A stretch of 64,000 nucleotides of DNA. It comes from an uncultured Rhodospirillaceae bacterium (lineage in GTDB: Bacteria; Pseudomonadota; Alphaproteobacteria; Rhodospirillales; Magnetospirillaceae). The position numbers and the translations under genes were made by a program. The notes below the pieces were generated by a model. It was given only the letters and a program-made list of their open reading frames with translations. It did no database searches and was not told the origin of the DNA. Positions within the stretch are counted from its first letter, which is position 1. Each line of letters starts with the position of its first letter. Location of the stretch: contig CAJANL010000235.1 in NCBI GenBank assembly GCA_903941105.1, positions 25,787 to 89,786 of the forward strand. Reading direction: 5' to 3'. Positions 39,323 through 54,094 of this stretch are shown piece after piece.

Positions 39323-40492
39323 TTGGTACTACATCGCCTGAGCTTTGCGGCCTTTGCGGCGGCCCTACTCGCCAGCTCGTCGGCTTTTGCCGCGTGCACG
39401 CCCCCTCCCGGACAGAGCCACTGCCCGCCGCCCCCCGGCGGCGGCGGCGGCATTGGTCCGCCGATGGCGCAGCAGGGCGGTTCGCAGGCTGCGGGCATGG
39501 TTGCCGGGCGCGTCGCCCAGGCCGTCGGCAACATTATCGGCAACGTTGCCGGTGGCCCGCGCGGTCCAGGCGGTCCGGGCGGCGGTAGCCCAGGGGGGTC
39601 GGGTGGCCCGGGCGGTTCAAGTGGCCCCGGTGGCGGCTCAGGCGGTGGTCAGGGCAAGTCCGACGGCCCCACCAGCATGATCGAAAGTGACGAACCCGGC
39701 ATGGCCGCGGGCAGCGTCCCGGCCAAGTGGGGCGTCTGGGGCAGCGGCAGCAACACATGGGTTGGGGGCGACCAGCTCAACAACGATTATTTCGGCCGTA
39801 TCCAGAACGGCCTGATCGGCGGCGACGTCACCATCGATGGCGTATACATCGTCGGCCTGTCGGTCGGTGCCGAGAAGGATTGGACCCGGATCAAATACTC
39901 GGGCGTCGGCATCGAGGGCGACGGGGCCATGATCTCGCCCTACGCTGCTTATATCATCGACCAGTATTTCTACGTCGATGCTTCGGCCGGCATGACCTGG
40001 ATGCGCTACCATGAGAGTTCCGACTCGCAGTCCGGTGACTACAACGGCAAGCGATGGTTCGCCGGCGCCAACCTGAATGCCTCCCGGACCTTCGATGCCT
40101 GGAGCGCCAGCACCAATATCGGCTACCTCTATACGGCGGAACGGCAGGACGCGTATCTCACGACCTCAAATTATGCCCAGCCGGAGTCCAAGTCGCGCAC
40201 CGGCCAGATTCGCAGCACGACCAAGTTGGGCCGCACTCACCTGACCGACTGGGGCTGGTTCTATCCCTACGCCTCGGCCCGGCTGGAATACGACGCCAAC
40301 AAGACGGGCGCGCTCTACGTCGACACCCAGGGGACCAAGGCCGCCAACAGTCGCTTCGGAACGACCTTCGGCGTCGGTTCAAGTGTCGGCCTCGGCTCGA
40401 ATTCGTCTCTGACGCTGGAGGGCACGTCCACCGAGTTCCGCGAGCACAGCAGCATTTACGGCATCAGCGGCACTGTTCGAGTGACCTTCTGA
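39323..40492 (+). CDS. Outer-membrane beta-barrel protein with Gly/Pro-rich linker
   Basis: A TTG start at 39323, preceded by GGGGGATATACC, gives signal peptide LVLHRLSFAAFAAALL, cleaved near AFA. A low-complexity stretch (residues about 30-115) is rich in Pro then Gly (PPPPGGGGGIG, GGPRGPGGPGGGS, GGSGGPGGSSGPGGG). The rest (about residues 130-389) is an autotransporter-like beta-barrel with many aromatic strand ends and a final Phe (SGTVRVTF). The whole would lie in the outer membrane with the Gly-rich part on either face. The gene directly precedes the PqqD-like/ATP-grasp cluster (113 bases away), so a link with that system is possible. No other start is available. Confidence 0.7.
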   Translation: MVLHRLSFAAFAAALLASSSAFAACTPPPGQSHCPPPPGGGGGIGPPMAQQGGSQAAGMVAGRVAQAVGNIIGNVAGGPRGPGGPGGGSPGGSGGPGGSSGPGGGSGGGQGKSDGPTSMIESDEPGMAAGSVPAKWGVWGSGSNTWVGGDQLNNDYFGRIQNGLIGGDVTIDGVYIVGLSVGAEKDWTRIKYSGVGIEGDGAMISPYAAYIIDQYFYVDASAGMTWMRYHESSDSQSGDYNGKRWFAGANLNASRTFDAWSASTNIGYLYTAERQDAYLTTSNYAQPESKSRTGQIRSTTKLGRTHLTDWGWFYPYASARLEYDANKTGALYVDTQGTKAANSRFGTTFGVGSSVGLGSNSSLTLEGTSTEFREHSSIYGISGTVRVTF

Positions 40493-40605
40493 ACGGATCG
40501 GCCGACTTTTCGGCGGGGAGGCCGGAAAGCCGGTGCCGAAGCTGGTTCGTCCGGTGGGGCGGGCCATTCCGTTTCGAATCTGCTGCTGAGCAACGAGGTC
40601 TGGAT

Positions 40606-40881
40606 ATGTCGGGCGATCTTCACAGCGTATTGCGCGACCTGCTTGGAAAGGGCAGGTTGCAGGCCCTGGCCATCAGTGCCAATGGCTTTGCCTTCGACCC
40701 GCGTTCCGGCCAGAGTTTCACCGTCAATCACACCGGCGTCGCCACAGTTGAAAAGCTGCTGGCCGGCAACGACGTCGACGCCACCGTTGCTGCTCTCACC
40801 GACGAATACGACGTGCCCGCCGAGGTGGTGCTGGGTGCTGTCGAGGTGTTCGTCCGCCAACTCGCGCGGTATCTGGCATGA
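40606..40881 (+). CDS. PqqD-like peptide-recognition protein, 91 aa
   Basis: The ATG at 40606 gives MSGDLHSVLRDLLGKG, and the core NHTGVATVEKLLAGN, VDATVAALTDEYDVPAEVV and VRQLARYLA follows the PqqD pattern (beta-hairpin, winged helix). PqqD domains act as RiPP recognition elements that bind the leader of a peptide or protein and hand it to modifying enzymes. The stop overlaps the ATG of the ATP-grasp gene by 4 bases. A Trp/aromatic anchor typical of PqqD is not obvious, so the domain is a distant member. It is the likely substrate-binding component of the cluster. Confidence 0.7.
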   Translation: MSGDLHSVLRDLLGKGRLQALAISANGFAFDPRSGQSFTVNHTGVATVEKLLAGNDVDATVAALTDEYDVPAEVVLGAVEVFVRQLARYLA

Positions 40882-41984
40882 ACGCCCAGTTCCCGTCCGG
40901 CGCAGACTGGCGGCGGTGGACTATTGCCGTCACCGGCATGAACGCGCGGCCGGACAATCCCGGCCCCGGCTTGGCGGTGGCCCGCTGCCTGCGCGAGGCG
41001 CCGGGGTTCTGCGGTCGCCTGATCGGCCTTGGCTACGAGGTGCTGGAGCCCGGGCTTTACTGCAGCGACATCTTCGATGCCACCTACATGCTGCCTTACC
41101 CTTCGGCGGGCAGCGAGGTACAGCTTGAGCGTCTGATGGAAATCCATGCGGGAGAGCGCATCGACGTCATCATTCCCTGCCTGGACGCGGAACTCAGCAC
41201 CTTCGCCCACAACCAGCCGCAGTTGGCCGCCCACGGCATCCGCATGCTTGTTCCGTCGCTGGAGCAACTGCGTATCCGCGCCAAGGACAACCTGGTGGAG
41301 CTGTGTCGTAAGCTTGGCTTCGACACGCCCGAAACCCGTACCGTCTCCGACCCCGGCTTTTTCGACCGCTGCTGCGACGAGGGGTGGCGCTATCCGCTGG
41401 TGGTGAAGGGCATCTACTACGACGCGATCGTGGCAGGCGATGCCGCCGACGCCAAGGCGGCATTCCAAAAAATCGCCAGCCAGTGGGGGTATCCAGTACT
41501 GGTGCAGGAGCATGTGCAGGGCTACGAGATCAATCTGACGGCGCTCGGCGACGGGCGTGGTGGCATGATCGGGCCGGTGATGATGCGCAAGCGGGCGCTG
41601 ACCGACAAGGGCAAGGCCTGGGCCGGCATCTCCATTTTCGACCAGACGCTGGAGGCGCTGGCGGAGGCGGTGATGGCCGAGTGCCACTGGTGCGGGCCGC
41701 TGGAAGTCGAGGCCCTGCGCGACGAGGGCGGCCGGCTGTACCTGATCGAGGTCAATCCGCGTTTTCCCGCCTGGGTCTACCTGACCCACGGGGTGGGGCG
41801 CAACCTGCCGCAAATCCTGTTGCAGACCCTCGCCGGATTGCCGCCGGCGGATCTGGCGCCGGCCCGGCTGGGAACGCTGTTCATCCGCTATGCCGAGGAG
41901 TTGATCGTGCCGCTGGAGCAGTTCCAGACCATGATGATCGACGGCGCACTTTCGCCCCCTGTCAACACCAGTCGCGTAGCGTGA
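40878..41984 (+). CDS. ATP-grasp ligase
   Basis: The 368-residue protein has a preATP-grasp N-terminal domain (TIAVTGMNARPDNPG, IDVIIPCLDAELS) and an ATP-grasp core: RAKDNLVELCRKLGFDTPET, YPLVVKGIYYDAI, VLVQEHVQGYEINL and the metal-binding LYLIEVNPRFPAWVYL. That layout is typical of amide-, peptide- or amino-acid-ligases that go through acyl-phosphate intermediates. It starts within the stop of the PqqD-like gene and lies 11 bases before the decarboxylase gene. It could conjugate an amino acid made by the decarboxylase to a peptide or protein. The acceptor is unknown. Confidence 0.8.
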   Translation: MNAQFPSGADWRRWTIAVTGMNARPDNPGPGLAVARCLREAPGFCGRLIGLGYEVLEPGLYCSDIFDATYMLPYPSAGSEVQLERLMEIHAGERIDVIIPCLDAELSTFAHNQPQLAAHGIRMLVPSLEQLRIRAKDNLVELCRKLGFDTPETRTVSDPGFFDRCCDEGWRYPLVVKGIYYDAIVAGDAADAKAAFQKIASQWGYPVLVQEHVQGYEINLTALGDGRGGMIGPVMMRKRALTDKGKAWAGISIFDQTLEALAEAVMAECHWCGPLEVEALRDEGGRLYLIEVNPRFPAWVYLTHGVGRNLPQILLQTLAGLPPADLAPARLGTLFIRYAEELIVPLEQFQTMMIDGALSPPVNTSRVA

Positions 41985-41995
41985 TGGTATAAATC

Positions 41996-43366
41996 ATGTC
42001 CAGGGATATCAAACGGGGCTGGGAACCGCCCTACATCACCCCGCACCGCCACGACAACAACAAGTTCGGACGCCGCGCCTCGCGCGACAACTGCTGCCAG
42101 CGCATCGACGGCATCGACGTCGACTACCTGATGGAGCGATACGGATCGCCGCTCTTCATCGCCTCCGAACGGCGCCTGCGGGAGAACGTGCGCCGTGTCC
42201 GCACGGCCTTCGAGCGGCACTACCAGCCGGTGGTGCACGGCTGGTCCTACAAGACCAACTACACCAGCGCCGTCTGCAGCATCCTGGCCCAGGAGGGATC
42301 GTGGGCCGAGGTGGTCTCGGCCTTCGAGTACGAGAAGGCGCGCGCCCTGGGGGTGCCGGGCGAACGCATCATCTTCAACGGCCCCTGCAAGAAGCGTCCG
42401 ATCCTTGAGCGCGCCATCGCCGAGCGGGCGAGGCTGCACGTCGATCACCTGGACGAGTTGGAGTTGATCGAGCGCATCGCCCGCGAACGTGGCGAGGTGG
42501 TGCCGGTGACGCTCAGGCTCAACTTCAACACCGGCTACACCGATCCCTGGAGCCGCTTCGGCTTCAACCTCGAATCGGGCCAGGCCCACAGTGCCGCCAC
42601 CCGAATCAAGCGCAGCCCCAACCTGCACCTCACCGGGCTGCACAGCCACATCGGCACCTTCATCCTGGAAACCCGGGCGTTTGCCGAGCAGGTCCGGTTG
42701 ATGTGCGGATTCATGAAGGCGGTCGAGGCCGATGGCGGGTGCCTGATCGACACCATCGACATCGGCGGCGGCTTGCCGTCCCGCAACGCGTTGCAGGGCA
42801 TCTACTTGCCGCCCGAGCAGGCGGTGCCGGCGGTCGAGGAGTTCGCCGCCGCCATCTGCGCGGCGCTGGAGGAGGGTCTGACCGACCGCGACCTGCCCCG
42901 TCCGACCCTGATCATCGAGAGCGGCCGGGCGGTGGTCGACGACGCCATCTCGCTGGCCACCACGGTGGTGGGAACCAAGCGCCTGCCCGATGGCCGGCCG
43001 GCGGCGGTGCTGGACGCCGGCATCAACGCCATGCTGACCGCGCTGTGGTACCATCACCCCGTCAAATTGACCAAGCCCAAGGAGGGCGACCGCGAGGATA
43101 CGGTGCTCTACGGCCCGATGTGCATGAACATCGACGTCATGCGCCACTCGGTCCAGCTGCCGCCGCTGAATGCCGGTGACACCCTGGTGTTCAATCCGGT
43201 TGGCGCCTACAACAACACCCAGTGGCTGCAGTTCATCGAGTACCGCCCGGCCATCGTGCTTGTCCATGCCGACGGCGACCACTCGGTGATCCGCGAGGCG
43301 GAGGTCCTGGCGGACATGAACCGCCACGACCGTCTGCCGCCGCACCTGCAATCGCTGACGCCCTAA
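41996..43366 (+). CDS. LysA-like PLP-dependent decarboxylase
   Basis: The 456-residue protein is a fold-type III decarboxylase of the diaminopimelate/ornithine type. HGWSYKTNYTSAV carries the PLP lysine K86. Other blocks are GSWAEVVSAFEYEKA, LRLNFNTGYTDPWSRF, LTGLHSHIGTFI, TIDIGGGLPSRN, IIESGRAVVDDA (EPGR-type phosphate loop) and GPMCMNIDVM (Cys plus Asp of the active site). The N-terminal 40 residues are extra. Family members decarboxylate D- or L-configured diamino acids, and this one may provide a modified amino acid for the neighbouring ATP-grasp ligase. It converges with the GNAT gene, overlapping it by 4 bases. Confidence 0.85.
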   Translation: MSRDIKRGWEPPYITPHRHDNNKFGRRASRDNCCQRIDGIDVDYLMERYGSPLFIASERRLRENVRRVRTAFERHYQPVVHGWSYKTNYTSAVCSILAQEGSWAEVVSAFEYEKARALGVPGERIIFNGPCKKRPILERAIAERARLHVDHLDELELIERIARERGEVVPVTLRLNFNTGYTDPWSRFGFNLESGQAHSAATRIKRSPNLHLTGLHSHIGTFILETRAFAEQVRLMCGFMKAVEADGGCLIDTIDIGGGLPSRNALQGIYLPPEQAVPAVEEFAAAICAALEEGLTDRDLPRPTLIIESGRAVVDDAISLATTVVGTKRLPDGRPAAVLDAGINAMLTALWYHHPVKLTKPKEGDREDTVLYGPMCMNIDVMRHSVQLPPLNAGDTLVFNPVGAYNNTQWLQFIEYRPAIVLVHADGDHSVIREAEVLADMNRHDRLPPHLQSLTP

Positions 43367-43896
43367 GCCGGTCGTTGCCCATGCTCCGCCGCCCGGAACT
43401 CCTCGGACAGGATCGACAGAAATACCCGGTCGACCCACTGGCCCCGGCGCCACCGGTCCTGGCGGGCTCGGCCTTCGACGGTGAAGCCGGCGCGATGGTG
43501 AATGATGCGCGAGCCTTTGTTGGACTCCAAGTAGTCCGACGTTACCTTGCGCAGCCCCAGGCGGTCGAAACCGTGGCTCAGGACGGCACGCAGCACCGCC
43601 AGACCCAGGCCCTTGCCCCATACGCTGCGCTCACCCAGCACGATGAAGAAGCGGGCGACGCCCCGTGTCGGGTCGTAATCCTCAAGGCCGGTGACACCGA
43701 CGAAGGCGCCGTCGCTCTCGATCGCCCATCGGCACCACGCATCGCCGACCAGGGAGGCCTGCGCCTGGGGCAACGCCAGCGGCCGCTGGCAGCGGTCCTC
43801 CAGCCACACGGTGACGTCGGGATCGGCGATGAAGGCGCAATAGGCCGACGCGTCTTCGTAGCGGGGCGGCCGAAGGAAGAAAGCAGGCGGTGCCAT
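43363..43896 (-). CDS. GNAT-family N-acetyltransferase (RimJ/RimL type)
   Basis: The product (177 residues from ATG 43896, alternative ATG 43935) reads FLRPPRYEDASAYCAFI, then DAWCRWAIESDGAFVGVTGL and GVARFFIVLGERSVWGKGLGLAVL, the acetyl-CoA-binding beta4-alpha3 loop. KVTSDYLESNKGSRIIHHRAGF follows. These are RimJ/RimL-type blocks. It is encoded on the opposite strand within the cluster. Its product could N-acetylate an amino sugar, an amino acid or a peptide N-terminus. It is the only gene of the cluster on this strand. Confidence 0.8.
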   Translation of the reverse strand: MAPPAFFLRPPRYEDASAYCAFIADPDVTVWLEDRCQRPLALPQAQASLVGDAWCRWAIESDGAFVGVTGLEDYDPTRGVARFFIVLGERSVWGKGLGLAVLRAVLSHGFDRLGLRKVTSDYLESNKGSRIIHHRAGFTVEGRARQDRWRRGQWVDRVFLSILSEEFRAAEHGQRPA

Positions 43897-43979
43897 GGGC
43901 AGATCCCATTTGATGGAACTGAGCACATGGTACATATAGGCTCAGTTATTTCAATACGGAAAATGGTGGCAGTGCAGTA

Positions 43980-46154
43980 ATGGTCGCTGGCAAGTACTTC
44001 GGCGGATGGCGCAAGTTTATCCATGACTTCGTCTATGGATACGGTTCATTTATGTTCTTTACCCGCCCGTCGGCGAACCTGTTGCTGCTTGCCTGCACCA
44101 TGATGCGGCCGTGGGTTGGTTTGCTGGGCATCATCGGTGGCGTTTCGACCCTGCTGTGCCGGCGCTGGCTAGGCTTGGTGATGGTGGCAGGCGGGCTGGA
44201 GGTGGCGAACGGCATTCTCGCGGGCCTGCTGGTGGGCTATTTTTTCGGTCCCGATTGGCGGACCGCGGTGCTGGCTGTCTGTGCCGGTCCGTTTGCCGTG
44301 TTGGTATCGGCGGCCATGGGGGCTGCGTTGCTCAAGCACCGGCTGCCGCTGCTGTCGGGTTCGTTCGTGGTGGTGGGAGGGCTGCTGCTGGCGGTCGGCC
44401 GCGCCCTGGCCCTGCCGTGGGGAGTGCCGGCGCCTCCCCCGCCGATCGAATGGCTGCCGATGCCGCTGGCCGAGTTCCTGAAGGCGCTTGGCGGCATCTA
44501 TCTTACACGGACGCCGGCCGGTGGAGCCTTGGTTCTGGCGGCCTTGGCGCTCTCGTCGCGCACCCTGGCGGTGCTGGCGGCGATGGGCTTCATCCTGGCC
44601 GAACTTGCCTTGGTGGTGCTGTTGGTGCCGGTGGACGAACTGGCGGGCAGTTCAGCGGCCAGCGCGGCAATCATGGCGGCGATCATGACCGGCGGCCTGT
44701 TCACCACTCCGAGCCTGCGGGCTTTCGGGGTGGCTGCCTTCAGCGCGGTCTGCGCCACCGTCGTCAGCCTGTCGCTGTTTAATGCACTGTGGTTCCTGGC
44801 GCTGCCGGCGTTGTCTTTGCCGTTTCTGCTGACAACCTGGCTGGTGATGTATGCGTTGCGCCCCGAGCGTGGGGCACAATGGCGGCATTACTGGGGATTT
44901 CCCGCTCTGCCGGAACGTAATCTGGAAGCCGCCCGTCAGGCGGAAGCACGCGGGCTGTCGCCCTTCAGCATTCCGCTCAAGGCGCCGTTCGCCGGTACCT
45001 GGACGGTTTACCAGGGCTACGATGGCGAGCACACCCACAAGGTGCCGTGGGAGCACGCGATCGATTTCCACCGTCTGGTCGACGGGCGTGCCTGCCGGGG
45101 GGGAGGAGAGCGGCTGGAGGACTATTTCTGCTTCGGCCTGTCGGTGCGCTCGCCGGCGGGAGGACGGGTGGTGGCGGCCTGCAGCGACCTGCCGGACAAC
45201 CCCCCGGGCGAGGTCGACGTGATCAACAATTGGGGCAATCACGTCTTGATCGCGATTGCCTCGGGCGACTACGTGCTGCTGGCCCATCTGCGCCGGGGCA
45301 GCGTGACGGTCAAGGTGGGTGACGACGTCGTGCCCGGCCAGCCACTGGGCCAGTGTGGCAATTCCGGCCGATCGCCGCACCCGCATCTCCATCTGCACGT
45401 GCAGTCCGGCTTTGCGCTCGGCAGTTCGACCCGGCCATTCCACCTGAGCGGGGTGTGCATCGAAGTCGCGGGCGGCCGCCGCTTCGACCTCAACGCGGTG
45501 CCGGCCGAGGGGGATCTGGTCTCGGCTCCCGTGGTCAGCGAGGCGCTGCGCCGTGGCCTGCACATGCCCATCGCCCGACGCCTGACCTATCGCGCTGCCG
45601 AGCCGGACGGGCGGGTTCGCGACGTGACGATCGAGGTCGACCTCGACCCCACCAACCAATTTCGTCTGGTGACGGAGGGTGGCGCCGCCGTGTCGCTGGC
45701 CGAAACCGACAGCCTGATCGCACTGTACAGCCGCAGCGGCCCCCCCGACGACTTCCTCGACGGCTTCGTGTTGGCAAACGGCTACATTCCGCTGATCGAC
45801 ATCGAGGCGGAGTGGCATGACGTGCCCCCCACCAGTCTGCTGCCGCTGCCGCGACTGCTGCGGGGCCTCGCCTGGCTGCTGCCCGCCCTGGTCAGCGCGC
45901 GCAGCCGCTACCGCAAGGAATGGGACACCGTCCACTTGGTCTGGCGCCATTCCGGCGAGCACAGCCTGTGCCTGGCCGGCACGCCGGTATGGCGCTGCCG
46001 CACCGACGCCATGGTGCCGGAAGGCGGCAGCATCAGCAGCTTCTCGCTGACGGTCGGCGACCGGGTGGTCTTGGCCGCCAATCTGGCCAGCGTCGGCATC
46101 AAGGGCGATACCGGCGTGCCGGGATGGGACGTCCCCATCGGCAAGGTCGTCTGA
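43980..46154 (+). CDS. Urea-transporter-like membrane domain fused to M23 (LytM) peptidase domain
   Basis: Residues about 1-300 hold some ten helices with features of the urea-transporter fold in two related halves (GYGSFMFFTRPSANLLLLA, PWVGLLGIIGGV, GGLEVANGILAGLLVG, then FLKALGGIYLTRTP). Residues about 325-500 form an M23 domain: WEHAIDF (H359 and D362) and HPHLHLHV (H469, H471), with GNHVLIAIASGDYVLLAHL. The usual HxxxD ligand pair reads H-A-I-D, one residue closer, and E358 sits where the ligand histidine is expected. The rest (to 724) is a beta-rich C-terminal region. It may cleave or sense a cell-wall or peptide substrate in the periplasm. Confidence 0.75.
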   Translation: MVAGKYFGGWRKFIHDFVYGYGSFMFFTRPSANLLLLACTMMRPWVGLLGIIGGVSTLLCRRWLGLVMVAGGLEVANGILAGLLVGYFFGPDWRTAVLAVCAGPFAVLVSAAMGAALLKHRLPLLSGSFVVVGGLLLAVGRALALPWGVPAPPPPIEWLPMPLAEFLKALGGIYLTRTPAGGALVLAALALSSRTLAVLAAMGFILAELALVVLLVPVDELAGSSAASAAIMAAIMTGGLFTTPSLRAFGVAAFSAVCATVVSLSLFNALWFLALPALSLPFLLTTWLVMYALRPERGAQWRHYWGFPALPERNLEAARQAEARGLSPFSIPLKAPFAGTWTVYQGYDGEHTHKVPWEHAIDFHRLVDGRACRGGGERLEDYFCFGLSVRSPAGGRVVAACSDLPDNPPGEVDVINNWGNHVLIAIASGDYVLLAHLRRGSVTVKVGDDVVPGQPLGQCGNSGRSPHPHLHLHVQSGFALGSSTRPFHLSGVCIEVAGGRRFDLNAVPAEGDLVSAPVVSEALRRGLHMPIARRLTYRAAEPDGRVRDVTIEVDLDPTNQFRLVTEGGAAVSLAETDSLIALYSRSGPPDDFLDGFVLANGYIPLIDIEAEWHDVPPTSLLPLPRLLRGLAWLLPALVSARSRYRKEWDTVHLVWRHSGEHSLCLAGTPVWRCRTDAMVPEGGSISSFSLTVGDRVVLAANLASVGIKGDTGVPGWDVPIGKVV

Positions 46155-46160
46155 GCGGCC

Positions 46161-47606
46161 ATGTGCGGTATCGCCGCAGCCATCGGGGTCCGCGATCCCA
46201 CCGTGTTCCACACCCTGTTCGAGGCGCTGGCCCATCGCGGCCCCGATGACCGAGGCGTGGCCGAAGTCGGCGACATCCGCATCGGCACGCACCGGCTGTC
46301 AATCGTCGGCGGGGACGGCGTCACCCTGCCGCTGCAAAGCGCCGACCAGAGGTATCTGCTGGCATTCAACGGCGAGATCTACAACCATCGCGAACTGCGG
46401 CGCCAGTTCGACGACTACCCGTGGCGCACCACCACCGACGGCGAGGTCGTCTTCCCGATCCTGGCCGCTGAAGGGCTGAAGGGACTTGACCGCCTGCGGG
46501 GCATGTTCGCCTTTGTTCTCGTCGAGGTCGCGACCGGGCGCTTCCTGGCGGTCCGCGATCCCCTCGGTATCAAGCCGCTGTATTACGCCCGCCTCGACGG
46601 CGGCGTGGTCTTCGCCTCCGAGCTGAAATCGCTGGCGGGCCTGCCCTGCATTCCGAACTTCTTGCCCCCCGGCCATGTGCTCGACCAGGACGGGCTGAAG
46701 CGCTGGTACCGGGTCCCCGGGCGCTTTTTCCGGCCACGGCGTCCGCCGCTCACCCAGTTGTTGGAGCAGGCGGTGCAATCTCATCTGCCGGAATCCGGCC
46801 CGTGCGGCGTCTTCCTGAGTGGCGGTGTCGACAGCAGCCTTGTCGCCGCCCTGGCGGCCCGCCTGCGGCCGGACATCGTAGCCTATACCGTGGTGCTGCC
46901 CGGTTCCGCCGACGAGGAGCCGGCCGCCGAGGTTGCCCGCTACCTTGGCATTCGCCACAAGGTGCTGCGTGCCACCGAGGAGGAGGCCCAGTCGATTGTC
47001 GGCGAGACGGTGGCGGCGTTGGAAAGCCACAACCCTGTGATGGTGCGCAATGCGGTGCCGCTCTATCTTCTGTCACGCTTTGTCGGAACCGACTGCAAGG
47101 TGGTGTTGGGCGGTGACGGCGCCGACGAGCTGTTCGCCGGATACGACTACTTGGCGACGCTGCCGCGGCGCAACTGGCAGGCGGCCATCGACATCGGCAT
47201 CAACAACCTCCATCGAACCGAGTTACAGCGGGTCGACCGCATGACCATGGCGCACGGCATCGAATTGCGGGTGCCGTTTCTCGATCGGGCAGTGGTCGAG
47301 GCGGCCGTTGACCTGCCGCTGTCGCACAAGGCCGGCCGGCACGACGGGCGTCCGGTCAATAAGCTCGCACTGCGCCAGGCGGCCGCCGGTCTGCTGCCTG
47401 ACCGACTGCGCTGGCGCCAGAAGCAACCGATGGTCGAGGGCAGCGGCTTCGCCCGATTGCGGCTGGAACCCGGCGATTTGTTCCGCTACTGGCGGCAGCG
47501 CTTCGCCAGCGTTGACCTCAACCGGCCGATCTGGGCCGACGCCGCCCGCTACGGGGACTTTCAGTGCCGACATGGCTGGCCGTTGCTGGAGCTGTTCCGT
47601 GGCTGA
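46161..47606 (+). CDS. Asparagine synthetase family protein (second copy)
   Basis: MCGIAAAIG places the glutaminase Cys at position 2. ALAHRGPDDRGV, GTHRLSIVGG, FNGEIYNHRELR and DPLGIKPLYYA follow. The synthetase half has the PP-loop LSGGVDSSLVAAL (S220-S226), VVLGGDGADELFAGYDY and HGIELRVPFLDRAV. All catalytic elements look intact. The 481-residue length is shorter than AsnB (about 550-640). In lasso peptide biosynthesis a homologue acts as cyclase, and other homologues amidate peptides or sugars. It lies 6 bases after the M23 fusion gene and overlaps the next gene by 8 bases. Confidence 0.85.
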   Translation: MCGIAAAIGVRDPTVFHTLFEALAHRGPDDRGVAEVGDIRIGTHRLSIVGGDGVTLPLQSADQRYLLAFNGEIYNHRELRRQFDDYPWRTTTDGEVVFPILAAEGLKGLDRLRGMFAFVLVEVATGRFLAVRDPLGIKPLYYARLDGGVVFASELKSLAGLPCIPNFLPPGHVLDQDGLKRWYRVPGRFFRPRRPPLTQLLEQAVQSHLPESGPCGVFLSGGVDSSLVAALAARLRPDIVAYTVVLPGSADEEPAAEVARYLGIRHKVLRATEEEAQSIVGETVAALESHNPVMVRNAVPLYLLSRFVGTDCKVVLGGDGADELFAGYDYLATLPRRNWQAAIDIGINNLHRTELQRVDRMTMAHGIELRVPFLDRAVVEAAVDLPLSHKAGRHDGRPVNKLALRQAAAGLLPDRLRWRQKQPMVEGSGFARLRLEPGDLFRYWRQRFASVDLNRPIWADAARYGDFQCRHGWPLLELFRG

Positions 47607-48936
47607 TCCGAGGCCTTTGCTGGACGCGGTGTTGACCGGCCTGGCGCAATTGGCGCTGTCGCGCTGCCGGCTCGTCGGGTTGGCCGTCGCGGCCGCGTTG
47701 CTGGCCTTCTCTCCTGCCGGCTTCGTCATGGGCATTTGGGGCGCCTTCGTGGCTACCGCCTGGCCCTATGTTCGCCAGCGCGACATTCGCCTGCTGGCCA
47801 CCGGTTGGTATGGCGCCAACGGGTTGCTGATCGGCCTTTGGCTGGCCTGGCTGATACCGCATTCGCCGCTACTGGCGGCAACCGTGACTTTGGCCGCCCT
47901 GGGCTCGGCACTGCTCGTCGACCTGACGGCGTACCGTCTGGGAGATGCCCCGCTTCGGATGCGTCCGCTGGCGATTCCGTGCATGGCCATCGCCATGTTG
48001 GCGGGGCCGGCTGTCCCTCTTCTGCATGACGGATATGAGCGGGGGATCAAGCCTGTGGCGGTCGAGGTGGCACCGACGGCGGAGAATGCCACCGCTTCCG
48101 GCTGGGCCGCCTACAAGGCCGGCAACCGGGCGACCGCTGCCGGCTGGCTGCGGCTGGCCATCGAGCGGGATCCAGACGACCGCTGGGCGGCCGACGGGCT
48201 GGGCTGGATTGCCTATGACGAATGTCGCTACGGCGAGGCGTCGGGATGGTTCGAACGCGCGGCGCCGTTGGCCGATGCCCGCGTCGGCCTGGGCTGGACC
48301 AGACTGATGCAGCGCCGACCCGGGGACGCGGCGGGCCTGTTTGACGCAGCACTGAACGACGGTCCTGGGCGCGCATTGGCCCAGGAGGGGCTGGCCTGGG
48401 CCTACCTGGCCACGCGGCGGCCCGCCGAGGCGGAGCACCTGTTCCTGGACCTGTTGCGCCGCGATTACCCTGGTGCCATTCAGGGTGTTGCAGATGCCCG
48501 CCGCGCGCTGGTGCGCCAGGGTTCGGCGCGGACGGGCGACGCGGCCGAGTGGCCCGCTCTGGCTCGCCTGTTCGGTTGGAAGATCGTCCTGCTGCCGCTG
48601 CTGCTGCTGGCGGTGCTGCGGGATAACCCACGCGCCGGCGGTGTTGCGGCGGCGGCGATCGCGGTGGGAGTGGCCGGCGGTCTGGCCGTCGCGGGTCCGG
48701 CCTCGCTGCTATGGATCGACCTGCACTTACAGACGATGGCGATGATCGCTCTCCTGGTGGGGCCGGCGGGTCGGTTCGGGGTGGGGACTGCCGCGGCCCT
48801 GTTGGCGGGCGTGGCCGCCTGGGCGATAGTCGGGAGCCCCGGCCTATGGCTGCCGCTGTTGCCGTTCAATCTGGTCGGCCTTGTCGTGCTGGCGCTGCGT
48901 CGAAACAGGCCGGCCGGCGCCCCGATCACTTGCTGA
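47599..48936 (+). CDS. Urea-transporter-like membrane protein with TPR insert
   Basis: From GTG 47599 (VADPRPLLDAVLTG) the product has about six helices in its first 150 residues (FSPAGFVMGIWGAFVATAWP, GWYGANGLLIGLWLAW). A soluble region with TPR-like repeats follows (ATASGWAAYKAGNRATAAG, ADGLGWIAYDECRYGEASGW, AQEGLAWAYLATRRPAEAE). The last 120 residues hold a second block of helices. The two helical blocks resemble the halves of a urea-transporter fold separated by the TPR insert. It overlaps the asparagine synthetase gene by 8 bases and the convergent CNB gene by 11 bases. It may form part of an export or sensing channel. Confidence 0.6.
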   Translation: MADPRPLLDAVLTGLAQLALSRCRLVGLAVAAALLAFSPAGFVMGIWGAFVATAWPYVRQRDIRLLATGWYGANGLLIGLWLAWLIPHSPLLAATVTLAALGSALLVDLTAYRLGDAPLRMRPLAIPCMAIAMLAGPAVPLLHDGYERGIKPVAVEVAPTAENATASGWAAYKAGNRATAAGWLRLAIERDPDDRWAADGLGWIAYDECRYGEASGWFERAAPLADARVGLGWTRLMQRRPGDAAGLFDAALNDGPGRALAQEGLAWAYLATRRPAEAEHLFLDLLRRDYPGAIQGVADARRALVRQGSARTGDAAEWPALARLFGWKIVLLPLLLLAVLRDNPRAGGVAAAAIAVGVAGGLAVAGPASLLWIDLHLQTMAMIALLVGPAGRFGVGTAAALLAGVAAWAIVGSPGLWLPLLPFNLVGLVVLALRRNRPAGAPITC

Positions 48937-50122
48937 TGCCGATCAACGCCTTGAGCCGGGTGACTTCGCGGGCCTGGTGGCGGAGGCGCGAGACCAGCAC
49001 TTTGAGCAGGCGGCGACTGGGCGGATCCATCTTCTTCAAGGTGGTGTCGAATTCAGCCAACGAGATTACCACCAATGTGCAGGGCTCCAGCGCACGGGCG
49101 GTGGCCATCCGCGGCTGGCGGTCGATCAGCGCCATGTCGCCGACGATGTCGCCCGGCGTTGAGACATCGAGATGGATGTCGCGGCCGTTGACGCCGGCCA
49201 TGGAAATCTGAATCAGGCCGCGCTCGATGATGAAGGCCTCGCCGTTGTGAAAATCCCCCTCGCGGAACAGGGTTTCGCCGGCTGCCAGCTTGCGGCGCTT
49301 GGTGCTGGGCGGAAAGGAGCGGTTGTTCGTGCTTAATCCTGCCCTGATCCTGTCATCAACCTCGGCCATGGCCGCCGTGACCTGATTGATCGAGAAATAC
49401 TCGCCACCGCACATTTTGGCGGCGATCTTCGACAGGGCGCCGCTCGCTTCATAGGCCACCGTGTCCTCGCGCGATATTTTGCCACCGTGCTTGGGCATCT
49501 CCGCGAGCAGCAGGGTCATCACTTCGCCGGCCAGGGTGATATCGGTATGTGCTGCATCGTCGCGGCGGTCGGTCATCCGCCGGGCGAGGGTTTCGTGGGA
49601 TTCGGTCAGGAACGACAGGCGGCAATCGAGAAAGCCATCGATCTGGCACTCGCCCATCGAGGAAAGCCGCACGTGCTGCGGCCTGATGAAACAGCCCTGA
49701 GTACCGCCGGAATGGTAATATTCGACGGCATAAACCACCTTCTGCATGGCCTGGACGAAGGCCAAGGGATCGGGACGCATCGTCCTGGCACCCAACTCCG
49801 AAATCGGTGGCAGGCCGGAATACTCCGACACCAAGTGGATGAAATCCTCGTCGTCGAACTGGTCATAGGCATGCAGGATGCCGGGATGGACCACCTTGAG
49901 GCTGAAGGCGGCGTCGGCCCGCATGCGCGATAGCGGATAGGGCGCGTTGGGAGCGGCGGCGCGGCGTTTGCTGATGGAGGTCACCGCCACCGCGCCGGTG
50001 GTCAGCAGGTCGACGGCGCCATAGGTGACGCTGATCCGGCCAGTGCCTTCGGTCCTCAGGATTTTATAGCGGTTACTGAGAACCGTGGTGTTCGCCGTGG
50101 CCGTTTTCACAATGCGGGTCAT
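48926..50122 (-). CDS. Degenerate kinase domain fused to C-terminal cyclic-nucleotide-binding domain
   Basis: The 398-residue protein has a kinase-like N-terminal region (LSNRYKILRTEGTG, VVHPGILHAYDQF, FIHLVSEYSGLPPISEL, AVEYYHSGG). In the place of the catalytic HRD loop it has CFIRPQHVRLSS and in the place of DFG it has DGFLD, so it should be a pseudokinase. The C-terminal part (about residues 270-390) is a cNMP-binding fold: LAAGETLFREGD, EAFIIERGLIQI, GDIVGDMALIDRQPRMATARAL. It probably binds cAMP/cGMP made by the cyclase of the neighbouring locus. It converges with the membrane protein gene upstream and shares a divergent region with the secretion operon. Confidence 0.75.
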   Translation of the reverse strand: MTRIVKTATANTTVLSNRYKILRTEGTGRISVTYGAVDLLTTGAVAVTSISKRRAAAPNAPYPLSRMRADAAFSLKVVHPGILHAYDQFDDEDFIHLVSEYSGLPPISELGARTMRPDPLAFVQAMQKVVYAVEYYHSGGTQGCFIRPQHVRLSSMGECQIDGFLDCRLSFLTESHETLARRMTDRRDDAAHTDITLAGEVMTLLLAEMPKHGGKISREDTVAYEASGALSKIAAKMCGGEYFSINQVTAAMAEVDDRIRAGLSTNNRSFPPSTKRRKLAAGETLFREGDFHNGEAFIIERGLIQISMAGVNGRDIHLDVSTPGDIVGDMALIDRQPRMATARALEPCTLVVISLAEFDTTLKKMDPPSRRLLKVLVSRLRHQAREVTRLKALIGISK

Positions 50123-50202: not shown

Positions 50203-50212
50203 CACAATTGTG
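50203..50212. repeat. Palindrome CACAATTGTG upstream of the secretion operon
   Basis: A perfect 10-base palindrome lies 80 bases upstream of the TpsB start and about 80 bases from the divergent pseudokinase gene. It resembles the centre of many operators. Since cyclic-nucleotide-binding proteins are encoded on both sides, a CRP-like regulator could use it, but it lacks the usual TGTGA-N6-TCACA spacing. It may be chance. Confidence 0.3.
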
Positions 50213-50291
50213 CTGGAAACTGAGATTATTAACCGGGGGACGCTGCAGACTTTCAAGTATGCGGCATCTCGAAGGTGGGGGGACTGGGATC

Positions 50292-51950
50292 GTGCGCTGG
50301 GTGGTGTGGGCGGGGCTGGCTGCGACGGTGTTCCTACCGTGCCTTGCGGCTGCACAGGGCCGCCTGCCCTCCACCGTCGAACCGGGCAGGGAGCGTGTGG
50401 CCCCGCCGGCCGTGCCCCAGGGCGAGTTCGACCTTTCCATCACCCAGCCCCGACGGGTGCCGCGCGACCGCGACGTCGACGCCTTGCGATTCACGGTGCG
50501 CGAAGTCGTCGTCGAGGGTGCCACCGTGTTGCGAGCCGATGAACTGGCGGCGCTGACCGGGCCCCTGATCGGACGCGAGGCGGCCCTGTCCGACGTCCTC
50601 GCGGTGGCCGAAGCCATCGAAGCCAGCTATCGCACCGCCGGCTACCTGATGACGCGCGCCTTCGTGCCGCCGCAGCGCAGCCGCAATGGCGTGTTCCGCA
50701 TCCTGGTGGTCGAGGGTTATGTCGGTTCGGTGGCGGTCGAGGGTGTCGATGCCGCCGAGGCCGGGCGGGTCAAGGCTTTCCTGGCGCCGGTGCTGGCCGA
50801 GCGGCCTTTGCGCAACGACACCATGGAACGGGCCCTACTGCTGCTGAACGACCAGCCCGGCCTGAAAGTATCGGGACTGCTGAAGCCGTCCAAGGATGAG
50901 ACCGGCGCCGCCGACATGGTGGTGTCGGCCAAATTGAAGCCCGCCGAGGTCACCGCCAGCCTCGACAACCGCTCGTCGCGCTATGAGGGGCCGTGGTCCG
51001 CCGGCTCGGACCTGGCGGTGATGTCGCCCACCGGCCACGGCGAGCGATTGTCGGCCGGCCTCTCGACGAGCCCCGAACTCGTGAAGAAGCGGGCGTTGCG
51101 GCTGGGCTACCTGCAGCCGCTTGGCAGCGACGGCCTGACGTCTGCCGTCTCGCTGGACTATTCCATGGGCCGGCCCGGCTACACTCTGGAAGACGCGGGA
51201 GCCCGCACCTTCAGCATGACCTTGGGCAGCCGGCTGGCCTATCCGCTGATTCGTGGCCGCGCCGAGAGCGTCATCCTCGACGGCGGCCTCAGCCTGCGCA
51301 CCGCCAGCAGCCATGTCGACGGCGCCAGCGTCGCGTTCGACCGCTGGCGCGTCGCAGACCTCAAGCTGGCCTGGACCCAGTCGGGCTGGCTGTCCGGCAT
51401 CGATACTGCAGCCCTGGGCGTGGCGCGCGGCCTGCCCATGCTGGGCGGCAGCCAGCGCGGCGACGCCAGCCTTTCGCGGCCCGGGATCAATACCGCCTTC
51501 ACCAAGCTCACCCTCGACCTCAGCCGGTTGCAGAGCCTGGCGCCGTCCTGGAGCCTCTATGTCGGCACCTCGGGACAGTATTCCTTCGACACCCTATTCG
51601 CCGGCGAGGAGTTCGCGCTGGGCAACTCCACTTTCGGCCACGGCTTCGACCCCAGCTCGCTGGTGGGCGACCATGGGATCGGTGGCACGGCGCAGTTGCG
51701 CTGGGACGTATCGTCGACAGCACCCCAGCTGCAGTCAGTGATGCTCTACACGTTCTACGATGCCGGCGTCACCTGGGTACGCACCACCGACACCCAGCAG
51801 GGGCTGGCATCGTTCGGCGGCGGCGTACGCATCGGGCTGACCGAATCGCACGACATCAATATCGAGGCAGCTCACCGGCTCTACGGCACTCAATCCACCG
51901 TAGGCGGACATTTCGCGCGCCTGATGCTGTCACTGACGGGGCGATTCTGA
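50292..51950 (+). CDS. Two-partner secretion transporter TpsB (ShlB/FhaC/HecB family)
   Basis: From GTG 50292 (after GGTGGGGGGACTGGG) the product has a signal peptide ending in AAA. Blocks typical of TpsB proteins follow: a first POTRA domain (FTVREVVVEGATVLRADELAAL, AEAIEASYRTAGYLMTRAFVP), a second POTRA (GVFRILVVEGYVGSV) and a C-terminal Omp85-type barrel (SRYEGPWSAGSDLAV, FYDAGVTWVRT, ending LMLSLTGRF). TpsB exports its partner TpsA across the outer membrane. Earlier starts (50208, 50259) are less likely because they delay the signal. The stop overlaps the TpsA start. Confidence 0.88.
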   Translation: MRWVVWAGLAATVFLPCLAAAQGRLPSTVEPGRERVAPPAVPQGEFDLSITQPRRVPRDRDVDALRFTVREVVVEGATVLRADELAALTGPLIGREAALSDVLAVAEAIEASYRTAGYLMTRAFVPPQRSRNGVFRILVVEGYVGSVAVEGVDAAEAGRVKAFLAPVLAERPLRNDTMERALLLLNDQPGLKVSGLLKPSKDETGAADMVVSAKLKPAEVTASLDNRSSRYEGPWSAGSDLAVMSPTGHGERLSAGLSTSPELVKKRALRLGYLQPLGSDGLTSAVSLDYSMGRPGYTLEDAGARTFSMTLGSRLAYPLIRGRAESVILDGGLSLRTASSHVDGASVAFDRWRVADLKLAWTQSGWLSGIDTAALGVARGLPMLGGSQRGDASLSRPGINTAFTKLTLDLSRLQSLAPSWSLYVGTSGQYSFDTLFAGEEFALGNSTFGHGFDPSSLVGDHGIGGTAQLRWDVSSTAPQLQSVMLYTFYDAGVTWVRTTDTQQGLASFGGGVRIGLTESHDINIEAAHRLYGTQSTVGGHFARLMLSLTGRF

Positions 51951-54094
51951 TGAAGAAGATTGTTCCGCTGGCTCTCCTCGGCTCCCTGGCGGCGGCTGCG
52001 GTCTCGGCCGCACCCGAGAACGGCAGCATTGTCAGCGGCCAGGCGGTCATCACCCAGACCGGCAACCGCATCGACGTGCTGCAGCAAAGCAGCAGTCTGG
52101 TCATCAACTGGAGCAGCTTTTCGATCGGCGCCGGCGAAACCGTGCAGTTCCGCCAGCCTGCGGCGTCGTCCACCGTGCTCAACCGGGTCATCGGCGGCAG
52201 CCTGTCCAGCCTCAACGGCCAGCTGCTGGCCAATGGCATCGTCCTCATCGTCAATCCGGCCGGTATCCAGGTGGGCTCCGCCGGCCGAGTCAACGTCGCC
52301 AGTTTCGTCGCCACCACCAACGCCATCGCCAATGCCGACTTCCTGGCCGGACGTTATGCCTTCGCCGCCGTGCCTGGCAGCGGCACGGTGGGCAATGCCG
52401 GCGTGATTTCGGTCCTGCCTGGCGGGACGGTGGTGCTGGCGGCCACCGAAGTTCGCAACGAGGGAACCATCGAGGCACCGCGCGGCGCGGTCGCATTGGG
52501 CGCCGCCAAGAGCTTTGCCGTCGACCTCGATGGCGACGGGCTGCTGCGTTACCAGGTGGGCGAGGCGGTGGCCGGCGCGCTGGTCGTCAACGGCGGTACC
52601 ATCACTGCCCTGGGCGGCCATGTCCTGGTGTCGGCCCGCTCGGTGGACGCCGTGTCGCGCGACGTCATCAATGTCGGCGGACTGATCGAGGCCAATACCG
52701 TCTCGGCGCAAGGTGGCGAGATCGTCTTTGACGGCGGCAGTCAGGGCATCGTCACCGTGGCGGGCCACGTGCGCGCGGTGGGCGACGATTCGCTGGAGAC
52801 GGGCGGCTCGATCAAGGTGTTGGGAGACATCGTGGCCGTGGCCGAGGGCGCCCGCATCGACGCCTCGGGTGCGGCGGGGGGCGGCATCATCCTGGCGGGC
52901 GGCGGCTTCCAGGGCGGCGGCCCGGAGCACCACGCCAGCGTCGCCTATGTCGCCGAGGGAGCCACGTTGGCCGCGGACGCCACCGATGCCGGCACCGGCG
53001 GCCAGGTGGTGGTATGGTCCGACCTCACCACCCGCTTCTACGGCAACACCAGCGTGCGCGGCGGTCCGCGCGGCGGCGACGGCGGCCTGGCGGAAGTGTC
53101 CAGCAAGGGCTGGCTGGACTTCCAGGGCCAGGCCGACCGGGCGGCGCCTCTGGGCCGGGCCGGCCTGCTGCTGCTCGATCCCCTGGACCTCACCATCGCC
53201 CAGGGTGCTAACCTAGGTCCCACCGCCATGAGCGGCGCCGGCACCAGCGGCGGCAATCCGCTGCAGCCCAGCGGCGGCGGCTCGTCCATCAATGACGGCA
53301 AGATCAATGCCCTGCTGGGCGGCGGCTCGCTGTACCTGTCGACTGGGTCGGGCGGCAACATCACCATGAATAACAACGTCGCCATCAACAGCGGTTCCGC
53401 CAACACGCTCGACATCCATTCCGGCGGAGGCTTCACCAGCCAGGTCGGCTCAACCGTCACCCTCAGCGGCGCGTTGCGCATCGTCGCCGACAACGCGCTC
53501 AACTACGGCAGCACCTCGACGGTCAGCGGCAACATCACCCTTTCGGGCCGCGACGTTTCACTGAGCGGCAGCGGCATCACCTCCTCCTCCGGCACCATCG
53601 ACGTCACCTCGACCGCCTCGTCGGTGGTCAGCAGCGCTACCTTGTCGGCGCCATTGGGCCAGGTGGTGATCCACAATCCCAGCAGCAGTATCGGTGCGCT
53701 GCCGCCACCGCCGCCGCCATCGCCGCCAGGGGCGGCATCGGCTCCCGCCTCCAACGGACCCGGCAACCGCGCCGGCGGCTCTGGGCCCGGAGACGCGCTC
53801 GCCGGCGGCCATCCGGGCGCCGGCATCGACGGGTCGGGCGGCGTGGCGGAGTCCGCGTTCGAACCGGGTCCCGGCGAGGCTCTGGGCGAGCAGGACGGTA
53901 GCGGCGGCCCCGGCGCACCGCCTCCGAGCGGTCCGGGGGGCGGTCCGCGCCGCCAGCCGCCATCCAAGCCGGCGGTGGCCCAGGTCATCCCCGGCCTGCT
54001 GGCCCGCGAGGTCGCAAGCGTTCCCGGCGACAGCCAGGGTGTTCCCGGCGTCTCGAACCGCTATTCCATCTTCGGGAACCCTGCTCTGTGGTAG
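51950..54094 (+). CDS. Two-partner secretion exoprotein TpsA (filamentous haemagglutinin type)
   Basis: ATG 51950 overlaps the TpsB stop (TGATG). The 714-residue product has a signal peptide (MKKIVPLALLGSLAAAAV). A TPS domain follows with GSIVSGQAVITQTGNR, LVINWSSFSIGAGETVQFRQ, VLNRVIGGSLSSLNGQLLAN and IVNPAGIQVGSAGRVNVASF (residues about 20-130), then repeats forming a beta-helix. The last 150 residues are Gly/Pro/Ser-rich (PPPPPPSPPGAAS, GPGGGPRRQPP). It is short for this class and has no obvious toxin domain. It could be an adhesin or matrix protein. Its stop overlaps the CHAT gene. Confidence 0.85.
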   Translation: MKKIVPLALLGSLAAAAVSAAPENGSIVSGQAVITQTGNRIDVLQQSSSLVINWSSFSIGAGETVQFRQPAASSTVLNRVIGGSLSSLNGQLLANGIVLIVNPAGIQVGSAGRVNVASFVATTNAIANADFLAGRYAFAAVPGSGTVGNAGVISVLPGGTVVLAATEVRNEGTIEAPRGAVALGAAKSFAVDLDGDGLLRYQVGEAVAGALVVNGGTITALGGHVLVSARSVDAVSRDVINVGGLIEANTVSAQGGEIVFDGGSQGIVTVAGHVRAVGDDSLETGGSIKVLGDIVAVAEGARIDASGAAGGGIILAGGGFQGGGPEHHASVAYVAEGATLAADATDAGTGGQVVVWSDLTTRFYGNTSVRGGPRGGDGGLAEVSSKGWLDFQGQADRAAPLGRAGLLLLDPLDLTIAQGANLGPTAMSGAGTSGGNPLQPSGGGSSINDGKINALLGGGSLYLSTGSGGNITMNNNVAINSGSANTLDIHSGGGFTSQVGSTVTLSGALRIVADNALNYGSTSTVSGNITLSGRDVSLSGSGITSSSGTIDVTSTASSVVSSATLSAPLGQVVIHNPSSSIGALPPPPPPSPPGAASAPASNGPGNRAGGSGPGDALAGGHPGAGIDGSGGVAESAFEPGPGEALGEQDGSGGPGAPPPSGPGGGPRRQPPSKPAVAQVIPGLLAREVASVPGDSQGVPGVSNRYSIFGNPALW

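Follow-up and report, generated by a model that had tools for sequence, protein, structure and literature searches.

What could a bacterium do with an ATP-grasp ligase, an amino-acid decarboxylase, a PqqD-like protein and membrane proteins of the urea-transporter (UT) type, and how many of the genes packed around them belong to one system? The question is raised by seven genes at 40606..48936 of the window, the 64,000-nucleotide stretch of DNA from an uncultured Rhodospirillaceae bacterium that was analysed here. The first-pass annotation had described seven packed genes and named their domains, and profile searches recovered all of them at the same coordinates with the domains as named. Five of the junctions are indeed 4-11 bases long or overlaps; the GNAT and UT::M23 fusion genes start divergently, 44 bases apart, and the GTG start of the second UT protein at 47599 lies eight bases within the asparagine-synthetase gene. 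The seven genes, preceded by one upstream gene, are as follows.

39323..40492, + strand: outer-membrane beta-barrel protein of autotransporter type (PF03797, 4.1e-13; signal peptide by eye), upstream of the core
40606..40881, + strand: PqqD-like protein of the RRE family, 91 aa (PF05402), predicted binder of a carrier or scaffold
40878..41984, + strand: 368-aa ATP-grasp ligase, amino-acid attachment predicted
41996..43366, + strand: PLP decarboxylase of alanine-racemase fold, 456 aa (PF02784 and PF00278), predicted to decarboxylate a conjugated amino acid
43363..43935, - strand: GNAT acetyltransferase (PF13302, 1.2e-20), a lineage-specific addition
43980..46154, + strand: UT::M23 fusion, with a UT membrane domain (residues ~5-320), an M23/LytM fold (~330-506) and a beta-rich C-terminal part to 724
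46161..47606, + strand: glutamine-dependent asparagine-synthetase-like amidotransferase, 481 aa (TIGR01536, 339 bits, cut-off 267), lineage-specific
47599..48936, + strand: second UT-like protein, GTG start, 445 aa (PF03253, 4.4e-10, and TPR_2), with the TPR between two membrane halves

Extent and conservation of the gene cluster

Relatives of the ligase are numerous (at least 2467 at E 0.001 or better, among 7997 candidates scored). Named genome contigs were scanned with the ligase, yielding at least 570 loci, the best 80 of which (L012-L091) were analysed with presence counts corrected for contig ends. In these best 80 loci, the PqqD-like gene and the LysA-like decarboxylase are each present in 78 of the 78 with room for them, and the UT::M23 fusion in 69 of 70, lying directly 3' of the decarboxylase on the same strand in 67 of those 69. 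The two deviating loci carry the fusion on the opposite strand (L014) or differ through an over-long reading frame (L075), and a single locus with room (L052) truly lacks it. Because the 80 loci had been selected by their ligase, a second test was made on one sample of 398 Pseudomonadota genomes, where the fusion, counted above 280 bits, was found in 36, the ligase in 37 (the sample contains related genomes; by genus, 16 of 213) and both in 32, with the same order and a distance of about 1.3-2.0 kb in 31 of these 32. Given the relatedness of the sampled genomes, the Fisher value for this co-occurrence should not be read as a true probability.

Judging by record titles, the hosts comprise alpha-, beta-, gamma- and zetaproteobacteria, Magnetococcales, Obscuribacterales/Melainabacteria, Eremiobacterota, Bacteroidetes, Geothrix and a Desulfobulbaceae MAG. 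Only three of 98 near relatives of the window's genome gave a strong match, so that its occurrence is patchy, in the manner expected of a mobile or frequently lost unit. The same order is kept across Pseudomonadota, Obscuribacterales/Melainabacteria, Eremiobacterota, Bacteroidetes and others, and the genes must therefore do something useful. The cassette is a conserved system that reaches far beyond the window, and its unit is four genes, coding for the PqqD-like protein, the ligase, the decarboxylase and the UT::M23 fusion. That the genes form one system had been proposed from the window; we looked for two outcomes running against this, a lack of co-occurrence and a lack of a PqqD family match, and the results favoured the system. 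Searches of open-licence papers found none describing this cluster.

The unit is smaller than the seven-gene block first envisaged: outside close kin, the cassette contains neither the GNAT nor the asparagine synthetase nor the second UT protein. The whole block was rejected as a unit on the position of the GNAT and amidotransferase genes. Among the fetched loci, L009 and L013 alone have the amidotransferase inside the cassette; they also harbor homologues of the second UT protein and of the GNAT (63% and 62% identity), the latter in forward orientation and thus inverted in the window, where no long inverted repeat flanks the gene. Four other loci (L019, L022, L078 and L089) have asparagine-synthetase-like genes 2-9 kb upstream, outside the cassette, whose products are longer (516-680 aa). 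A compatible-solute or nitrogen route of the N-acetylglutaminylglutamine-amide kind, built from a ligase, an acetyltransferase and an amidotransferase, could draw on the ligase, GNAT and asparagine-synthetase homologue of the window. It is very improbable, given that neither the GNAT nor the amidotransferase is found in the cassette beyond close kin and that the amidotransferase scores 212 bits against TIGR03104 for a cut-off of 570; on this score the N-acetylglutaminylglutamine amide pathway itself was rejected.

Some loci show particular arrangements. L052, on a contig labelled Legionella sp. MAG, has the PqqD-like, ligase and decarboxylase genes followed by other genes on the opposite strand. 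Genome G167 harbors two strong ligase copies (C60 and C182), the C182 copy being downstream and not upstream of the fusion. Just downstream of the window cluster, positions 50208-54094 hold a two-partner secretion pair, namely a ShlB/FhaC-type transporter with POTRA_2 and a TPS-domain protein. The reverse-strand gene at 48926-50122 codes for a protein with a cyclic-nucleotide-binding domain and a weak kinase match below cut-off, and genes with a related cNMP domain precede the cassette in L009.

The ligase, the decarboxylase and the PqqD-like protein

For the four core genes we favour, at a probability of roughly 0.4, a reading in which an amino acid is attached to a carrier and decarboxylated there to an amine, the product being exported via an inner-membrane channel. 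In the fold comparison, the structures closest to the ligase include PylC and L-amino acid ligase. The enzyme keeps the conserved ATP-grasp residues and would join to the carrier an amino acid that is probably basic. The source annotations, 'carbamoyl-phosphate synthase large subunit' for this protein and 'urea transporter' for the fusion, are both contradicted or weakened.

The nearest solved relative of the decarboxylase is the N-citrylornithine decarboxylase FslC (7kh2, 199 bits), compared with 160 bits for the best diaminopimelate decarboxylase and 82 and 80 bits for BtrK structures. For the profile alignments, short or weak hits (below 60 bits for PqqD-like proteins, below 600 bits for decarboxylases and fusions) were dropped, as were 11 loci that were duplicates or matched weakly, leaving 79, 73 and 67 rows with the window included, the 73 being the decarboxylase set and the 67 the fusion set. 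A Cys-Met-Asn-Ile loop is present in all 73 cassette decarboxylases, the window enzyme having CMNID as against CETGD in the LysA of the same genome and CDSAD in another of its decarboxylases. The acid that follows the loop cysteine in LysA is thus replaced by Met in 73/73 sequences, as it is in FslC (CMQHD), and a cysteine loop free of the acid of LysA/ODC is the mark of the group acting on conjugated amino acids. In the available part of PMC7857480, FigC, SbnH, AcsE, MccE and BtrK are grouped as such relatives, with FigC/FslC, MccE and BtrK decarboxylating amino acids on their conjugates and BtrK acting on the amino acid carried by BtrI. The window enzyme scores 227.9 bits against the LysA equivalog model (cut-off 297.9) and 222.2 bits against the NCBIfam FslC model (cut-off 500), and is, as far as sequence comparison can tell, a relative of FslC and not FslC itself. 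Its FslC-like active-site loop suggests that it would remove the alpha-carboxylate of the attached amino acid. Identity with the housekeeping LysA was rejected on the score below cut-off, the different cysteine loop and a separate lysA elsewhere in the genome (478.7 bits).

Each enzyme's chemistry has precedents, and what appears new, judged by the literature searched, is the combination of parts. At the start of the butirosin side chain (BtrJ/BtrK/BtrI), the ATP-grasp ligase BtrJ charges a small protein with an amino acid, which a PLP enzyme of alanine-racemase fold then decarboxylates in place. However, the small protein there is an acyl carrier protein, whereas that of the cassette is of RRE type and is accompanied by a channel fusion, and the cassette decarboxylase is nearer to FslC than to BtrK in the scores given above. 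The Francisella rhizoferrin route (FslA/FslC, also FigA/FigC), as presented in the same part of PMC7857480, shares the order of conjugation followed by decarboxylation and the Met in the cysteine loop, but uses a NIS synthetase in place of the ATP-grasp ligase and has neither PqqD-like protein nor channel fusion. The first-pass annotation had suggested that the decarboxylase and ligase could make and attach a non-standard amino acid; production and attachment of a non-standard group by these two enzymes is still the reading that fits best.

The PqqD-like protein, the sole PqqD match in this genome, scores 42.5 bits against PF05402 (cut-off 23.4), in line with its initial assignment to the PqqD type, and would hold the putative carrier or scaffold. 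Its nearest NCBIfam model is the lasso RRE NF033530 (40.7 bits, cut-off 70). A ribosomal peptide whose precursor is encoded elsewhere is the nearest of the alternatives, though unlikely: the RRE would bind a leader, the ligase and decarboxylase would modify the peptide end and the M23 fold would cut the leader before export. The PqqD match above the Pfam cut-off and the lasso RRE as nearest model are in favor of this, as is MccE, a relative in the FigC group, which acts on a ribosomal peptide according to the part of PMC7857480 cited above. On the other side, among 1974 small ORFs located between large genes, searched at the loci only, no family occurs in more than three loci bar PqqD itself and ORFs antisense to it; moreover, the core contains no ABC exporter, and a urea-type pore would be too narrow for a peptide (2-3 A in known pores, in the part of PMC10541013 available). 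The first-pass annotation had likewise noted no obvious precursor gene, and its wider proposal of a peptide- or protein-modifying pathway with export is left unproven, no precursor peptide family being found at the loci.

Known RiPP pathways guided by RRE/PqqD proteins (PQQ, lasso) resemble the cassette in having a free PqqD-family protein beside a modifying enzyme, but the cassette differs in that no precursor, transglutaminase-like protease or core cyclase-like gene was found. No transglutaminase-like B2 protease is present among the nine window proteins scanned (39323-50122), and the asparagine-synthetase homologue scores 114.8 against the lasso cyclase NF033535 (cut-off 525); this agrees with the absence of such a protease and of an ABC exporter remarked on before. 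Lasso peptide and PQQ were both rejected for want of a protease and a precursor and for the low cyclase score (pqqA, B, C and E lay outside the search). If the favoured reading of carrier-bound synthesis is true, the cassette is a new setting for an RRE domain without a nearby precursor. The available part of the RRE discovery paper (PMC12710340) does not mention decarboxylase, urea, M23 or TetR. One weak precursor lead is a 46-aa ORF with a hydrophobic stretch upstream of the cassette, near-identical in three Melainabacteria-type loci (L024 8513-8653, L032 4646-4786 and L073 8511-8651).

The channel fusion and its envelope partners

The fusion has both a UT fold and a LytM fold. In 66 of the 67 fusion sequences the loops predicted to lie inside contain more Lys and Arg, which places both ends of the channel domain inside and the M23-fold domain in the cytoplasm. 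The cytoplasmic location, predicted from known urea-transporter topology and these loop charges only, goes against the periplasmic peptidase domain first assumed. M23 zinc motifs are HxxxD and HxH. The HxH and the Asp are kept in 67/67, but HxxxD is not matched: four residues before the Asp, where the motif has its His, the window protein has Glu and most of the others have Gln, Arg or Lys. An invariant His nine before the Asp in the 67 sequences indicates that the first zinc-binding His is displaced. On the cytoplasmic face of the channel, the M23-fold domain may release or trim the product. The hydrophobic stretches of the second UT protein all lie before residue 143 or after residue 318, and known UT topology puts the stretch between the two membrane halves on the periplasmic side, so that by analogy the TPR stretch of the window protein is predicted to be periplasmic.

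Envelope partners were counted with home-made barrel and TPR rules in the 55 loci in which the fusion is followed by 2.5 kb or more of sequence. An outer-membrane-type barrel is present in 31 and a free TPR protein in 33 of them; 37 have one or the other, 27 both and 18 neither. By a home-made scoring rule, signal-peptide-like starts are found in 35/38 TPR proteins and 31/35 barrels (23/27 and 8/8), with ligase (1/80) and decarboxylase (1/74) as controls. From their predicted features, the secreted TPR proteins and outer-membrane barrels of other loci are thus export candidates, which the first-pass annotation did not count. The window barrel (39323-40492) has counterparts in the same place in L009 and L012 (57% and 54% identity), but the barrel profile of the other loci does not detect it, which makes it a positional analogue rather than a shown homologue.

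These partners, being envelope proteins, would also suit an attachment of the amine to peptidoglycan or another envelope polymer, with the M23 fold as a periplasmic hydrolase, and M23 enzymes are known as peptidoglycan hydrolases. Since the loop charges put this domain inside and the first zinc-binding His of its motif is displaced, such an envelope modification is improbable and stands fourth in our ranking, after amine synthesis on a carrier followed by export, a RiPP whose precursor lies elsewhere, and uptake or sensing.

The Thr pair of the urea filter is replaced by Ser126 and Ser279 in the window protein (mapped by alignment), and Thr occurs at the two sites in only 2/67 and 8/67 fusion sequences. 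In the available part of PMC4357013 the filter threonines of dvUT are T130 and T294, kept in UT-A2 and UT-B. The cassette fusion differs from these urea transporters (dvUT, UT-A, UT-B) by the mostly missing filter pair and by the fused M23-fold domain, and plain urea uptake was rejected on the missing pair. The product would cross an altered pore of the urea type.

The direction of transport allows another reading, as channels work both ways: the channel may admit a small amide or amine, which the cytoplasmic M23 fold and the enzymes would process and TetR fusions or a two-component pair would report. In keeping with this, a TetR-type N-terminal match (E 0.01 or better) was found in 10 of the 13 long PqqD proteins scanned, two of them over the curated cut-off, the profile scan revealing a PqqD domain fused behind a TetR-like regulator (L036 9171-9989, L056 9159-9977 and others), and histidine kinase and response regulator genes lie 3' of the cassette in several loci. 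An ATP-driven ligase nevertheless points to synthesis, and the kinase pairs are outside the constant core; uptake or sensing appears less likely than a RiPP. Directly 3' of the cassette, BaeS-like histidine kinases are encoded in L037 (6021-7583) and L073 (14664-16575 region), the latter locus also having a BaeR-like response regulator in the same region; all are below curated cut-offs.

Replacement of the enzyme pair and a possible route across the envelope

In the 398 genomes, the fusion occurs without the ligase in G143, G171, G269 and G270 (loci were fetched for the first two), and the ligase without the fusion in G274, whose contig shows a partial match to UT downstream, and G294, whose contig ends in the decarboxylase. 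Three genomes, two of them of one genus, have room yet no adjoining fusion (G159, G223 and G262); together with L052 they indicate that the first three genes can stand alone and that the channel is dispensable.

G143 and G171 have the fusion, the TPR protein and the same barrel family together with a PRK06524-like ATP-grasp ligase, a decarboxylase of the Orn/Lys/Arg (OKR) family and an AAT hydrolase. As in the cassette, an ATP-grasp ligase adjoins an amino-acid decarboxylase, but the OKR fold is unrelated to that of the cassette enzyme, and in eight further genomes of the 398 the ligase-OKR-AAT trio has no fusion within the 9-16 kb fetched. The two genomes belong to one genus, with ligases 96% identical, so the replacement counts as one evolutionary event; it lacks a PqqD-like gene, which puts PqqD outside the common logic. 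That one envelope port is served by two unrelated ligase-decarboxylase pairs gives the strongest hint of a shared theme, a decarboxylated basic amino acid conjugate.

Beyond the pore, a TPR protein in the periplasm and a barrel in the outer membrane would carry the product on. In the window, the TPR stretch of the second channel protein may stand in for the TPR protein, and the GNAT and amidotransferase would decorate the product. The reading of carrier-bound synthesis is weakened by the failure to find a precursor or carrier gene at the loci and by the absence of both barrel and free TPR protein from 18 of the 55 loci. If true, it describes a route to an exported amine and a new use of the urea-channel fold. 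The complete version, a trans-envelope amine factory in which the carrier-loaded and decarboxylated product is released by a cytoplasmic M23 fold and passes through a repurposed urea channel to the TPR protein and barrel, is rather doubtful; it would represent the first metabolite exporter in the urea-transporter family, the first M23-fold enzyme working in the cytoplasm, and exchangeable ligase-decarboxylase engines behind one envelope port.

The surroundings of the trio vary. A CN_hydrolase gene lies beside it in L102 and L103, with look-alikes recognised by eye in L104-L107. L100 has an M24/creatinase gene, and in L101 the trio is found among M24/creatinase, AstE/AspA, AsnC and aldehyde dehydrogenase genes, surroundings that resemble those of ectoine degradation.
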